DNA of 28,048 nucleotides from a virus: positions 1-28,048 of IMG/VR virus record IMGVR_UViG_3300042555_001861; one strand, given 5' to 3'. The notes beneath the pieces are model-generated. The model made no database searches and was not told where the DNA came from. It worked only from the letters and a program-made list of their open reading frames with translations. Both the position numbers and the translations under genes were made by a program. The first letter of the stretch is position 1. The number at the start of each line of letters is the position of its first letter. Positions 3,001-24,136 of the stretch are shown one piece after another.

Positions 3001-6000
3001 GCTGGTATAATCGCCATCCCAATCAACTGTACGGAATCCTCGACTCTTAATACGTTCTTGACGATAGCCTGTTGGCTTATCATAGATAACATCATTGAAA
3101 ACTGTACGATCATCAAACACAACTACGTGTTCTTTGAGCACAAAATGCAATTTTAAAAAATATACGCCTTCATTGGTATCTGTGGTTGATATAGTAATAG
3201 TTTGAAAATCTCTATTGACATTGATATTTCGTGGTGACAACGTGGCTCCGTCATTCTTTAAAACCTGATAATCATAAAAACCATCTAGTATATTGTCTGC
3301 TACTCCCACGGCGAAATTAATTTTCAACAATGATGCTGCCGGACTTAGTGTCAGCAAAGATCCTTCGGCCCAATTATGCTGACTCCAAAACATGAATTCT
3401 TTAGCAGATGTAAACCAATCTCTGGCTGCTTGATACTGCGGATCATAAAAATCAAAAACAAACCCCACGCTTTTGAGATATTCTTGATAGCCTAGAAGAA
3501 AATCTATCACCTGTTGAATATCAGTCACCACTGCGCCGTAGAATAATTTTCTTATTTTTAGTTTGTTGAAATTTCTTCTTCTAAAAGCAGTAATTCCGCC
3601 AGTGATCGGAGCTCCTGCTAATTTTCGCCATGTTGCGGTGCCGTTGGGAGTTTCTTCAAACTCAATACCGCTAGTATGGCTGCGTATGCTGCGATAAAAT
3701 TGATTTTGATATCGTATGACTATTCCATTGCCATAGAATTTTTCACTTTCCCAATCAAAGAAATTCTCACTGACTCCACCTACTTGGATAACAGGATCGC
3801 GCTGAGATTGCACGGCGGCATAATAATTAAAAAAAGCATTGGAATTATCATAACCGCTGATTTTGTATCCTTGGTTCGTTTTTTCTATAATTACTCCGCT
3901 ATACACAAGGTTTGTGATCGGTGCGCTAACATTAAAAATTATGTCATAATTCTCTGGCGGGATAAAAATACTGCTAGAAGTTGATTTTGGATTCTTACTG
4001 TCTAGTACATATTTTTGTTGTGCCTGGTCGACAAAACCTGCCAATCGATTAGATAATTTAACATTAATATTTGACAATTTGTCTTCTAGATTGGCAGAGT
4101 CGGTAGCTGTGCTTTTTAAATAATTTACAATATAAATTACCAATCCTGACACCGGCTGATCTACAGTAGATTCATAAATTAAATCATCTATAGTCAAAAA
4201 CATCTGCGTATTTGTATTAACTGTTTGTCCAAGAATATTTGTGGTTACTGCGCTTCGGTTAAAACCGTCTGCAATAAATTCCATGGGTTTTAACAATGAT
4301 AATACTGACATGATAGCAAATGGCCATTCACTGCTGGATCTCCATGCAAATTCTACAGGGGCTAGATCTCCAAGTTGAAAAGCTCCTTGATTATTCACCA
4401 ATGAAAAATTTCCAGCAAGCCCAGAATCTAAAGGACTCAACAATTGACCATCTCCGTCTACAGGAATGTGCTGCATGATTGAAGGGCGCTTGTACCTGTC
4501 TCGTATACCAGCACGATCACCTTGACGAATTATGCCATCTCTTAGATCTTCCCACAGAATTAAATTATTTGAAGTATAAGGTGCTGGACCGTATTCACTT
4601 TCCCACCATGTGGGTTTTTCTGAAAATCCCAGCATTTCCCACGGGCATTGGTGTGGCCTTGTTGTGTCATAGAACCATTGATAGACTCCTCTCCAATAGC
4701 CTGGTAGATTCACTGCGCCCGTAGGGTCAGTCATGTTGCTGTAGGTATAAGTGAAAGAATTTTGAGAATCATAATAACTGTTTTTTACGTAGTCAATGCT
4801 GGTGCCTTGAATCCATTTTAAAAATTCAGCATTTACAATATTGTCAACTTGAAGTTTGTTATACTGTGAGTTTCCGTAATACCCGCCAAGTATAAGATCA
4901 ATGTCAAATACATTTTCTTTATATTCTTGTTTGATATTGTTGTAGATTCTGTATTCAAGTTCAAGTAGAACATCATCTCTAAAATCACCATAGGCCACAG
5001 TGATGCTACCGTCGTGTCCTTGTATGACTTCTTGTGGCTCAGCATAGGTATCGTCTAAGAATCTTCTAGGTAGATATTTTTTATATAATCCCATCTTGGT
5101 AGGAGTTGGTGGAATAAAATTCACAGCCGTAGACACATACTCTCTAATTTGAATTTTATCGTTTTCAGAAAGCTGTATTTTTAAATTTACAAAACCAAAA
5201 GTTGAATTAAACTCATAGTCTTTGTTATGTAAAAGTTGTTGATTGTTGTAATACACGTAGACTGCTCGAGAACTAAGTGTAGCAAGATCAAATTTTTCAG
5301 ACAGTGCGAATGTTTTAATCCCCGTGTCTTCTACTGTGTAATCTATTGTAGAATATGCTCCACTACCAATCATGTCTGATCCAGCAAAGGGTCTGGTTGA
5401 ATTTTGTGATCTACTGATTTCTTCTAGTATAGAATCCACAAAATCTTTTGGGGTTTGATCATAGTACAGTTCATTAGCTAGCGTGATGAAACTGTTTTTA
5501 AAATCTGTATAGGTTTTCTTGGCATACTGTATAGACTTGATGATATTGATTTCTTTATCGCATAACAATGCTATCGACAGCGGGGCAGGGCTAGAATGTT
5601 TTAGAAATCGTCTAGTGAGATTTTGAAATCCACTGATATCACGTAGATTATTACTGCCAGGATATCGTCCAACAAAATTATCTAGCATTTCTAATCCGCT
5701 AGAAATATGATCAGATGCTTGTCCCAGTGTGAATGTTTTTATTCTTTCATTTAGGGGATTTTTTTCCAGACCCATTGGTATTTCATAATATCCTAGATCA
5801 GGCACAGTATCTGCAAATATTTTAATTGTGATAACATCACCAACAGCAAAATTATTTGTGAAAGTAAATGTGTCGATGTTTCTTGTATAGGTGTCACGTA
5901 GTTGTACACCGTTGAGATAAAATAAAATCTTTGCTATTTTGTCATCTGTAAGTGTGGTCCAATCGACCACTGCCGTGACAATTTCATTGGTAATAGAATT

Positions 6001-21462: not shown

Positions 21463-21689
21463 GTTCAGAAAGCCATGACAAGATGATTGCTGCTTTTCAG
21501 GAATATTTTAAGTGGCAAGAACGATTTGAATACAAAGGCTCTGACGAAGCAGGCATTAAGGCACGATATTGGCTATCAGAAATACGTAATGAAGCAAGCG
21601 TAAGGCGCATAGAAATACAGGCAAAAAGAGAAGAACGCAAACAAGCCAGAAAAGGCATGATAGGAAGGCCCAAGAAAATAAGTACCTGA
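21459..21689 (+). CDS. Small basic helical protein of unknown function
   Basis: 76 residues from a TTG start. The TTG overlaps the gp46 stop (TTGA) and has GGAG eight bases upstream; the first in-frame ATG (21483) has no comparable signal, so TTG is preferred. The sequence is almost all predicted helix, with FQEYFKWQERFEYKG early and a strongly basic end (RRIEIQAKREERKQARKGMI), which would suit nucleic-acid or partner binding. Similar short proteins follow or lie near replication genes in marine T4-like phages, as I recall, without an assigned role. It is coupled to gp46 before it and to the GIY-YIG gene after it (TGATG). Confidence 0.7.
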   Translation: MSSESHDKMIAAFQEYFKWQERFEYKGSDEAGIKARYWLSEIRNEASVRRIEIQAKREERKQARKGMIGRPKKIST

Positions 21690-22123
21690 TGACATGGTAC
21701 TATAAGAAGAAAGAAGTTGTTGAAATCTCCGAAGATTACATCGGTTTCGTATATCTTATTACTAATGTCGTCTCTGGGCGCAAGTATATAGGCAAAAAAC
21801 TAGCCAAGTTTGCAAAGACCACTTATAAAACAGTAACTTTGAAGAACGGCAAAAAGAAGAAAAAGAAAATTAGAGGCAAAATTGAAAGCGATTGGAAGGA
21901 CTATTATGGTTCTAGCGATGCGCTAACAGCAGACGTACAGGCCTTAGGCAAAGAAAACTTCACCAGAGAAATATTATTCTACTGCAAAAACAAATCAGAA
22001 TGCAGCTACATCGAGGCAAGAGAACAATTCAAACACAAAGTTCTAGAATCAACTGACTGGTACAACGGTCACATACAGGTTCGAGTTCACGGCTCACATA
22101 TCCTCAAAAAACCCAAAATTTAA
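21689..22123 (+). CDS. GIY-YIG family nuclease-like protein
   Basis: 144 residues. The GIY-like part is GFVYLITN (19-26) and the YIG part KYIGKK (32-37). Downstream are DWKDYYGSS (68-76), GKENFTREIL (87-96) and SYIEAREQFKHKVL (106-119), where E109 fits the catalytic glutamate, followed by the conserved-looking DWYNGHI (123-129) with N126. A basic insert with six consecutive lysines (55-60) sits where family members carry the catalytic arginine region, so the arginine cannot be placed with confidence. T4 Seg proteins are free-standing GIY-YIG homing endonucleases; this one could be of that kind or a domesticated DNA-processing enzyme, since it is coupled to the gp46 operon (TGATG with the gene before). 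No inteins or introns are seen around it. Confidence 0.75.
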   Translation: MTWYYKKKEVVEISEDYIGFVYLITNVVSGRKYIGKKLAKFAKTTYKTVTLKNGKKKKKKIRGKIESDWKDYYGSSDALTADVQALGKENFTREILFYCKNKSECSYIEAREQFKHKVLESTDWYNGHIQVRVHGSHILKKPKI

Positions 22124-22538
22124 CAAACACACACCGCCACTAGGCTCAATAAATCTAGGCAACAAACTGCCAAATAAGCCCGCACCGGCGTTGTTAGTGT
22201 GCCCTTAAAGCTGGATCTCGGATCGCAGTCAATGGAATTCCCTACTTGGCAGAGGGGTTGTACAGTAGTATCCTTAACAGGACCACGATCGGATATGCCT
22301 ACAGAACCGGTTTACTGTACAAGAAAGTATTATATCAAGGCTAAAGATGGGAGAAAAACCCACGGTTGTTGCGCAAGACTGCGTTTGTGTAGCAATCCGC
22401 CGTCATTAATAAGACTTGGCTCGAGGTACCGGATGACCGCCTCTGTAAACGCCATAACGCCGTATGTACTGTGCAACTCGCATAATGCTTCTTAGCCCGC
22501 AAGGGCTAAGTATGACTGAACAATCTGCATAATACTTA
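22124..22538 (+). ncRNA. Candidate structured non-coding RNA (no known family assigned)
   Basis: No convincing protein gene fits here. GC is about 48 percent over 22201-22500 by hand count, clearly above the AT-rich flanks. Base pairing is strong: 22186-22194 (CGGCGTTGT) pairs with 22454-22462 (nine pairs, one G-U) and closes a domain of about 277 bases; inside, 22258-22267 (TTGTACAGTA) pairs perfectly with 22313-22322; smaller hairpins include 22348-22351 with 22359-22362 and 22372-22375 with 22380-22383. An eight-pair hairpin with a GCAA tetraloop follows at 22491-22510. I find no tRNA, tmRNA or RNase P landmarks and no clear group I intron core. Strand is assumed from the flanking genes. 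Confidence 0.45.
22491..22510 (+). other. Hairpin with GNRA (GCAA) tetraloop
   Basis: CTTAGCCC pairs perfectly with GGGCTAAG around the loop GCAA. It is not followed by a run of T, so it does not look like an ordinary terminator. It may be the 3' end or a protective hairpin of the structured RNA before it. Confidence 0.6.
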
Positions 22539-22627
22539 AATTGCTTCGCAATTACAATAATCAACACAGTTTAGGAGAAAGAAAATTCGTTGAGCGAAAG
22601 CGAAAACGAATGTGAGCTTCAGCTCAC
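22539..22627 (+). other. Series of three leader hairpins with a repeated 12-base tail
   Basis: Three perfect hairpins stand in a row: 22539-22553 (AATTGC, loop TTC, GCAATT), 22585-22611 (ATTCGTT with AACGAAT, enclosing GCGAAAGC) and 22612-22627 (GTGAGC with GCTCAC, loop TTCA). The first and third are followed by the same 12 bases, CAATTACAATAA, at 22549-22560 and 22627-22638. The second copy runs into the late promoter. The arrangement suggests RNA processing or message-stability elements in the leader of transcripts arriving from upstream. Confidence 0.55.
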
Positions 22628-22661
22628 AATTACAATAAATAACATATCAACCTTCGAGTAA
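22590..22661 (+). CDS. Possible 23-residue leader peptide
   Basis: A TTG at 22590 opens a frame of 23 codons (starting MSESENECELQLTITINN) that ends two bases before the ATG of the next gene. AGGAG stands at 22573-22577, twelve bases upstream, a better ribosome site than the weak GAG before the next gene. The frame passes through two hairpins and over the late promoter element, so only transcripts from further upstream would contain it. It could couple translation to the gene at 22664. It may also be chance; the start is non-ATG and the spacing long. Confidence 0.25.
   Translation: MSESENECELQLTITINNISTFE
22634..22641 (+). promoter_or_regulatory. Late promoter for the 22664-25046 unit
   Basis: AATAAATA matches NATAAATA exactly. 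Transcription would start near 22647, giving a leader of about 17 bases before the ATG at 22664, with only a weak GAG at 22656-22658 as ribosome site. Confidence 0.6.
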
Positions 22662-22663
22662 AC

Positions 22664-24136
22664 ATGAGAGTAAGCAATATAATATTTGAACAACATATGA
22701 TTAATTCTAATAAAATCCTATTAGAATCATGTCATGACCTTGATATCGAACAACAGGCAGTTGTTGAAGGTATTTACAACGAGTTACGACCTTTAATCGA
22801 AGCTAGTCTTAGTGCTGATCAAATTAAAACTATATTTGGTAGTATAGAGAAGTCTGCAACTGATGCTGGCGGTAATAGAACCATGCTGGGCAAAGGTGTT
22901 GACGTAGCTAAAAAAGCTGATGAAGTGGTCAACAACATTGGTAAATGGCTACAGGATACTACTCCAGTTAAGGCATTTGATCAAAAGTTCGATAACTTAA
23001 AGAATAAAATCAATACCAAGTTTCCAGATAGTAAAATTTTAGATATGATTTCAAATATGGGAATCTATGCTACAAACAATCCTGGAAAGACTGCTGCAAT
23101 TATTGGTGTTCTAACTGCTATTGCTGCCTTAGCAGGCGGGCCAGTAGGCGGTGCTATTGCTGGTCAAGTACTGCGTGGTGCTGTAGAATTACTTAAAGGC
23201 GAAAAATTATCCACTGCCTTAGGCAAAGGTATTAAAACTGCTGCCTATGGTTTCATTGCAGGAAAGACTTTCGAATTGCTAGGCGACGCAATCAAAGGCG
23301 GAGCACAGGTAGTTAAAGATAATCTGTTTCCAAACGCACTTCGTTTAAACATGACTCAGGTCTTTGATGAAGTTGGCGGTGAACTAGGTACTCGCTGGGC
23401 TAATTTTGAAATTAAAGGACTAGTTGGTAGACCTGAAGACATTAACACAGCTAAAAAATTGTTTGGCGAAGCTGGGCAATATTGGAAAGCCGGAGACTAT
23501 GAGCAGAGTGCAGCCACTTGGAAATCACTGGAAGGCTTGATTGCTGACACATTCAACGATAAAGAATACATAGCGCAGATTGCGTCTGATCAAGCTAGTA
23601 GAACTATGATCAGTCAGGCAGCACAAGCTGCTCAAGAAGCTACTAAATATCTTGGAGCGGCTGCACAGGGTGCAGTAGCTGCCGCAGGAGTTAAAGGTGC
23701 TCCTGCTAAAAAAGAATCTATACAACATCATCAACGTCCCTTAAGTGAAGGACAAGTGTATCTGGTGTTTAAACGAATCACCGAATCGCAACTCAACGAA
23801 GGGCCAGCGGATGCTATCAAGGGTCTGGCTGGCAAGGTCATGAACAAGGCTCGCACAGTTGGCACCAATCTAACAACTAAGATTACTGCTGACAAATTAA
23901 ATTCTGCTTGGCAAAAGGCAGGCGCACCCGTTGACAGTGAAGAACTTAAAAAGTTTTTAACCACTCAAGGTGTTGATGCTGCAATAGTAGACGGCGTATA
24001 TAAATCTTTAAAAATCAAGAGTGGTGTTGCAGCCACATCTTTGTATGCACAAGTTAAAACAGATTTAGCAAAACTAGACATGAAAGGCAAACAGCGTCTT
24101 TCGGCTTATCTACAAAAACAATTAGGAACTGCTTAA
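22664..24136 (+). CDS. Late protein of unknown function, candidate processed head-internal protein
   Basis: 490 residues; not a family I can name. Residues 142-170 form a hydrophobic Ala/Gly-rich stretch (TAAIIGVLTAIAALAGGPVG) that could insert into or cross a membrane, with more hydrophobic helix near 194-210. Residues 315-345 are Ala/Gln-rich. At 360-380 there is a cluster of L/I-x-E sites (PLSEG, RITES, QLNEG), the pattern cut by the T4 prohead protease gp21, and others lie near the N-terminus (LLES 19-22, LIEA 44-47). The last 30 residues (YAQVK, KLD, KGKQR, LQK) are shared with the next protein. It is preceded by a late promoter and followed after one base by the next gene. Packaging in the head and processing, as for T4 internal proteins, is an inference; a membrane-acting ejected protein is possible. 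Confidence 0.6.
   Translation: MRVSNIIFEQHMINSNKILLESCHDLDIEQQAVVEGIYNELRPLIEASLSADQIKTIFGSIEKSATDAGGNRTMLGKGVDVAKKADEVVNNIGKWLQDTTPVKAFDQKFDNLKNKINTKFPDSKILDMISNMGIYATNNPGKTAAIIGVLTAIAALAGGPVGGAIAGQVLRGAVELLKGEKLSTALGKGIKTAAYGFIAGKTFELLGDAIKGGAQVVKDNLFPNALRLNMTQVFDEVGGELGTRWANFEIKGLVGRPEDINTAKKLFGEAGQYWKAGDYEQSAATWKSLEGLIADTFNDKEYIAQIASDQASRTMISQAAQAAQEATKYLGAAAQGAVAAAGVKGAPAKKESIQHHQRPLSEGQVYLVFKRITESQLNEGPADAIKGLAGKVMNKARTVGTNLTTKITADKLNSAWQKAGAPVDSEELKKFLTTQGVDAAIVDGVYKSLKIKSGVAATSLYAQVKTDLAKLDMKGKQRLSAYLQKQLGTA

Follow-up and report, generated by a model that had tools for sequence, protein, structure and literature searches.

Results

Genes and features at the locus

The window analyzed here is a 28,048-nt stretch of viral DNA (IMG/VR record IMGVR_UViG_3300042555_001861), in which a SegE-type endonuclease gene is followed by the structured region described below (Table 1). 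Upstream of SegE lie genes for SbcC- and SbcD-like subunits, which we take to be gp46 and gp47 in T4 naming, and then a late sigma factor. A first-pass annotation had claimed that the region beyond SegE holds no credible protein gene and has raised GC, and both claims hold. Between the end of SegE at 22123 and the plus-strand ORF that begins at 22664, 3′ of the RNA, the listed ORFs span only 48 to 98 residues and use GTG or TTG starts, and conservation tracks base pairing; the GC content of 22124–22538 is 47.2% versus 39.1% for the window, a value reached by 27 of 1106 sliding stretches. The family of the 21689–22123 product is named "NAD synthetase" in PHROG (phrog_447) and many GenBank records, versus SegE GIY-YIG in Pfam, and the former label looks like a spreading misannotation.

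Table 1 Features of the RNA locus, with the percentage of alignment cells paired in each helix over 114 homolog rows.
Feature	Coordinates	Strand	Description
SegE-type GIY-YIG endonuclease gene	21689..22123	+	Pfam PF19835, E 2.9e-33; usual upstream neighbor
Whole conserved RNA (extended Polynucleobacter-1)	22165..22538	+	Defined by homolog conservation; ends approximate
Rfam-covered part	22177..22322	+	RF01718; 146 nt, 5′ part of the RNA
PK0	22167..22173 (CUGCCAA) with 22246..22252 (UUGGCAG)	+	Pairs with P3 loop; by direct strand comparison
P1 hairpin	22182-22186/22198-22202	+	96.7% paired; 84 double-change cells
P2 hairpin	22211..22228	+	88.5% paired
P3 hairpin	22240-22243/22254-22257 (22240..22257)	+	94.7% paired
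P4 stem	22258-22267/22313-22322	+	80.7% paired; encloses P5 and P6
P5	inside P4 (22258..22322)	+	Weak: 89.9% paired, one of four pairs double-changed
P6	22287-22292/22307-22312	+	100% paired; inside P4
P8 small hairpin	22349..22361	+	77.5% paired
P9 long hairpin	22364..22397	+	91.5% paired; 12 of 12 pairs double-changed; loop makes PKa
PKa	22378..22384 with 22457..22463	+	98.5% paired; 5′ strand in P9 loop
PKb	22402..22406 (GUCAU) with 22433..22437 (AUGAC)	+	97.3% paired
P10	22417-22420/22451-22454	+	98.5% paired; encloses P11
P11	22424-22426/22440-22442	+	100% paired; within P10
Box R1	22480..22486	+	GCAUAAU; direct repeat, identical to R2
P12 GNRA hairpin	22491-22498/22503-22510	+	Loop GCAA at 22499-22502; between R1 and R2
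Box R2	22527..22533	+	GCAUAAU; direct repeat, identical to R1
AATAAATA, T4-late-promoter-like box	22634..22641	+	3′ of the RNA, ahead of the downstream ORF

The RNA occupies one locus, usually directly 3′ of the gp46–SegE gene pair. SegE shares the strand of the RNA and lies at most 350 nt from its 3′ core in 194 of 209 stretches, some of which are on a common contig, and 1.05 to 1.3 kb from the core in three more. Of the 12 stretches without SegE, 11 end less than 300 nt from the core; in the twelfth (L044), a PDDEXK_15 endonuclease (4127–4642, E 1.1e-25) fills the SegE slot directly before a retained RNA. A reverse search from SegE, taking the best 80 of 466 relatives and recovering many contigs common to the RNA-recruited set, found the core at 66 of the 73 loci whose downstream sequence reached 480 nt or more; one further locus (L376) is without the core motif and has an RNA copy recognized by Rfam, and six are without the RNA. 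Furthermore, 18 of 24 large contigs carry the exact motif once, the other six, including the window's own group, being without it.

Some individual loci depart from this arrangement. The upstream position in L044 reads as an exchangeable endonuclease slot. SegE ends early, ahead of the RNA, in L057, and in L096 its frame continues into the RNA at P4, so that the latter RNA is without its 5′ domain; each could be a real deletion or an assembly join.

Downstream of the RNA, the first ORFs (92 rows; mechanically called ORFs of at least 70 residues, some of which may be spurious) fall into 33 clusters, with 47 on the plus strand and 45 on the minus strand, which argues for an RNA gene or a 3′ tail rather than a leader. 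A late-promoter-like HATAAATA box lies between the RNA and the ORF in 36 of the 47 plus-strand cases, compared with eight of the 45 minus-strand cases and 5.2% of shuffled gaps; in the window this box is AATAAATA, which we take to resemble T4 late promoters. Such boxes are not enriched window-wide (four found versus 8.85 expected). The downstream cargo is very variable among relatives, and many of the plus-strand ORFs (22664–24136 in the window, and relatives) begin with short motifs such as MKIxELLxE, similar to the capsid-targeting N termini that are cleaved off T4 internal proteins. Finally, 22539–22630, 3′ of the RNA, contains short hairpins whose loops are CTTCG or the like, and similar ones are found in the same place in relatives.

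The RNA is a full-length form of Polynucleobacter-1

The RNA had been left unassigned by the first-pass annotation. An Rfam search assigns its 5′ part to RF01718 (Polynucleobacter-1), scoring 82 bits where the cut-off is 37 and matching model positions 1 to 141 of 141. This model spans less than half of the molecule, because conservation across 114 nonredundant homologs extends from approximately 22165 to 22538. Homologs were collected from IMG/VR with a 5′-half pattern (88 stretches) and an independent 3′-half pattern (at least 120); the 189 usable instances (143 distinct) gave 114 rows of <95% identity, and 39 homologs had been aligned earlier. The segment 22165–22538 is a plus-strand structured RNA of T4-related phages and the full-length form of Polynucleobacter-1.

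A sub-threshold PGK match is the sole other Rfam match at E up to 10. The earlier failure to recognize a tRNA, tmRNA, RNase P RNA, or clear group I intron agrees with Rfam and with ARAGORN, which finds no tRNA or tmRNA in the window; a group I intron has no Rfam match at E up to 10, and the RNA sits between ORFs rather than in an interrupted gene. GOLLD and ROOL are large, ornate structured RNAs, partly phage-associated and of unknown function. The RNA described here is likewise large, structured, and phage-linked, yet the comparison with GOLLD, ROOL, and HEARO suggested in the first-pass annotation gives no hit to their Rfam models, with E values of up to 10 allowed.

Polynucleobacter-1 is listed from Burkholderiales and from fresh water and estuary rather than from marine phages, as probably an RNA and probably cis-regulatory, in the motif entries of Weinberg et al. 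2010 (PMC2864571). The segment 22177–22322 covers the whole model with the same hairpins, and the consensus hairpins P1, P2, P3, P4, and P6 are kept across the 114 rows. In contrast to the model, the RNA here is over twice as long, adding the upstream strand of PK0 and, downstream, P8 to P12, PKa, PKb, and the twin boxes. It occupies a single locus in phage contigs, where the strands of the downstream ORFs count against cis-regulation. We found no description of the longer RNA or of twin boxes in the literature searched, in which PMC2864571 alone names the family. Blastn of the window's RNA and of a second homolog (L020) against named phage records returned no match. One exact pattern gave two chance matches in bacterial genomes; the sequence around them departs from that of the RNA, and neither genome has an RF01718 match. 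Nor does any of 369 genomes of a single class, a set that perhaps does not include Polynucleobacter and in which no genome gave a positive-control match.

A covariation-supported fold with three pseudoknots

Single-sequence folding of the region is unremarkable (z −1.34 for the plus strand and −1.06 for the minus strand), and the evidence for structure is therefore covariation, which bears out the claim of a structured, probably noncoding phage RNA of about 400 nt. The helices emerged from mutual information (MI) on the 114 rows, without a prior model. Across the 74 pairs of twelve helices, 90.5% of cells are standard pairs in the true register, and 1165 show double changes; when 3′ partners are moved by one to three columns (six registers), 35.0 to 42.5% are paired with 136 to 210 double changes, a control that favors the true register because this alignment also supplied the structure. 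Column-preserving shuffles are exceeded by at least 10 standard deviations for 11 of the 12 helices and by approximately three for P12. At 49 paired sites, G-U outnumbers A-C (499 versus 52), and the RNA is therefore read from the plus strand.

Two of the 12 helices are the pseudoknots PKa and PKb, the latter with 107 double-change cells at the true register versus 0 to 2 in slid registers. A third, PK0, is separately supported and has its 5′ strand upstream of the Rfam model. The mean longest Watson–Crick run between its strands is 4.61 versus 3.81 (maximum 4.03) in 200 shuffles of partners among sequences; by MAFFT columns, which align poorly there, just 35.3% is paired versus 30.9%. A candidate P7 (22339–22341/22399–22401) is without covariation (90.9% versus 91.2% in shuffles) and was dropped.

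Three helices had been proposed from the window's sequence alone, with covariation in relatives as the check, and two of these survive. The perfect ten-pair stem is P4, in which seven of 10 pairs change on both sides (161 double-change cells). The eight-pair GNRA hairpin, P12, is visible in relatives, though loosely aligned (76.1% paired versus 74.9% in shuffles, with one slid register giving 80.4%). The nine-pair helix said to close the structure (22186–22194/22454–22462) fails, at 42.7% paired versus 42.9% in shuffles, and its bases are used elsewhere: 22186 ends P1 and 22187–22194 lie in its loop, and on the 3′ side 22454 belongs to P10 and 22457–22462 to PKa.

Twin boxes that vary by sameness

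The most unusual feature of the RNA, missed in the first-pass annotation, is its pair of boxes that covary by identity. Columns 22480, 22481, 22484, and 22486 of R1 covary with columns 22527, 22528, 22531, and 22533 of R2 as strongly as do helix pairs, with 0% complementarity and the same letters throughout; all four column pairs are identical in 114 of 114 rows. Over all loci, R1 equals R2 in 160 of 163 distinct stretches representing 11 sequence types. With no box letter forced, the boxes agree in 123 of 124 distinct stretches of L001–L219 (121 as parsed, plus L086 and L202 with R1 re-read). In the SegE-recruited set, 48 of 49 agree. The three R1/R2 mismatches are G/A in L366 (the contig of L228), G/A in L227, and U/G in L081. 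A scan of IMG/VR with one flank pattern for G in R1 and not-G in R2 at the second position, in that direction, found none, L081 being of the reverse kind; a scan for G versus A at the first position gave three stretches, two of which are the same RNA.

Joint changes of R1 and R2 recur across the phylogeny. In a tree that leaves out the box columns, box type requires at least 41 changes, and the first box position alone changes at least 22 times. The supported independent contrasts all run in the same direction (14/14, 8/8, 5/5, and 3/3), those at the fifth and seventh positions being few (sign test p 0.06 and 0.25). Were recombination to move the entire 3′ module at once, joint changes would be overcounted.

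The surroundings of the two boxes differ constantly, which argues against gene conversion: CUC precedes R1 and UCU precedes R2 in 114 of 114 rows, where TCT ahead of R2 had been required in selecting the rows and CUC ahead of R1 had not, and the boxes are followed mostly by G (R1) or A (R2). Positions 22475/22522 are U/A in 23 of 114 rows. Box spacing ranges from 47 to 59 nt, and the linker between R1 and P12 varies. Some diverged homologs, L354, L376, and L408, have an altered P12 or flanks and identical boxes: in L376 and L354 the boxes match despite changed surroundings, and in L408 a flanking A is G in both copies. These would be useful for a wider family model.

The motif may also be compared with STAXI, described in the relevant entry of PMC2864571 as a self-repeating RNA element of tandem pseudoknots near genes for DNA-handling proteins. 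Whole pseudoknots repeat in STAXI, whereas here a 7-nt box and its arm alone do so, and STAXI has no Rfam match in this RNA.

Search for a partner of the boxes

By MI, no partner is found within the RNA, and the R2 equivalent is by far the strongest partner of each R1 column. A search that needs no alignment, covering the RNA with 700 nt upstream and 400 nt downstream, likewise found no partner; its best z, 2.5, is a direct-copy signal reached in three of 300 shuffles. In 13 phage contigs (67 to 145 kb of fetched sequence each, with G003, G010, G012, G020, and G021 partial), 7-mers of the contig's own type are not clearly enriched, and five longer partner-like matches occur outside the RNA on four contigs. 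At 508 places aligned between contigs of differing box type, 200 follow the type, each being the RNA's own box, 250 have another sequence, and 58 keep that of the query; no partner is thus found at conserved-flank places in the 13 contigs, by a method blind to places without conserved flanks.

Among columns of the sigma factor, gp47, gp46, and SegE, the highest normalized MI is 0.23 for the first box position and 0.51 for the second, compared with 0.93 and 0.98 between R1 and R2. For SegE the maxima at these two positions are 0.12 and 0.19 (180 rows), below gp46, and at the fifth and seventh positions SegE gives 0.28 and 0.31 versus 0.67 and 0.40 for gp46. Phage tRNAs were considered as a partner, and nine of the 10 contigs scanned, some in part, have none; the phage contig of L278 (G015) carries 26 tRNA genes. 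The failure to find a partner in the RNA, nearby, in linked proteins, or at conserved contig places favors one outside the phage.

Two coding explanations were rejected. A peptide encoded between the boxes (AUG...UAA in some rows) does not fit because the spacing is not in frame, and a T4 gene 60-like ribosome bypass is not consistent with spacings of 0, 1, and 2 modulo 3 in 36, 35, and 43 of the 114 rows. Each matched box type does spell a stop codon, UAA or UGA, right after a sense codon whose last letter is A.

Discussion

The reading that we favor, although tentatively and on comparative sequence evidence, is that the RNA acts in trans and that its boxes are twin docking sites for one non-phage partner. 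The RNA would be made as the 3′ tail of the gp46–SegE operon or from its own promoter and would work as a noncoding RNA instead of serving the following gene as a leader. Its first ~300 nt would form a compact body held by the three pseudoknots, from which two arms near the 3′ end may each expose the same 7-nt box. We consider a host RNA the likeliest partner, with a protein of two-fold symmetry as the alternative; the sequence or specificity of this partner would differ between hosts such that both boxes must change together. The constant flank differences between R1 and R2 are transitions, so that one partner base could wobble-pair with both; the G/A mismatches in L227 and L366 are likewise wobble-compatible, and the U/G mismatch in L081 is not and counts against this pairing, as does the U/A at 22475/22522 in 23 of 114 rows. 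If wobble sufficed, more mismatches than three in 163 might be expected, given at least 22 changes at the first box position.

Roughly half as probable is a 3′ UTR element that stabilizes, processes, or terminates the late-sigma/gp47/gp46/SegE mRNA. The usual position after SegE, P12 near the 3′ end, and the short hairpins beyond it all fit, but about 370 nt with three pseudoknots exceeds the needs of a stabilizer, the matched boxes are left unexplained, and a terminator scan of 21600–22800 returned no plus-strand site. Direct contact between R1 and R2 as side-by-side parallel strands, to which only like-with-like contacts would be admitted, is improbable: it would account for the dominance of R2 among the partners of every R1 column and for the lack of a third partner in the RNA, its surroundings, four linked proteins, or the conserved places of 13 contigs, but the variable R1–P12 linker sits poorly with it, and a parallel homo-paired RNA duplex of seven steps is, as far as we know, without precedent in nature.

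Two further proposals are slightly less probable again. A role as cis-regulatory leader or as riboswitch for the gene downstream would agree with the position of the ORF at 22664, next in the window, and with the "y" under cis-reg in a table of Weinberg et al. (PMC2864571); against this, nearly half of the downstream ORFs lie on the opposite strand, in diverse clusters, and the late-promoter-like box stands 3′ of the RNA in most plus-strand cases. Tyrosine recombinase overlap regions need identity and leave the sequence free, and an exchange reaction between R1 and R2, such as recombination or template switching, would through homology sensing yield just such a 7-nt requirement; a single-box product is nevertheless not among the 22 stretches found with one pattern, and the box flanks constantly differ. 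Finally, a nuclease–RNA pair of SegE and the RNA, loosely HEARO/IscB-like, is very improbable despite a linkage seen from both search directions, since SegE residues do not follow the first two box positions, L044 keeps the RNA beside an unrelated endonuclease, SegE is shortened ahead of the RNA in L057, and of five named phage records with SegE relatives, the four annotated have the next gene within 150 nt and the four scanned with Rfam (all but L224) give no match.

We return to twin docking sites for a non-phage partner. It is possible, with somewhat less confidence than we attach to that reading, that many uncultured T4-related phages carry a large noncoding RNA in which two 7-base boxes must match while their sequence is free. 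With the same reserve, the coevolution of R1 and R2 may be one of sameness rather than complementarity and unlike any RNA motif known to us. If true, a single phage RNA would either read a rapidly changing host partner two times or make a direct like-with-like RNA contact. A little-studied orphan motif of 141 nt becomes a large pseudoknotted phage RNA at a defined locus, and its host, expression, and role become testable. Complementarity-based methods would miss covariation by identity elsewhere, and, should the partner prove to be an RNA or protein of the host, box type may indicate which hosts uncultured phages infect.
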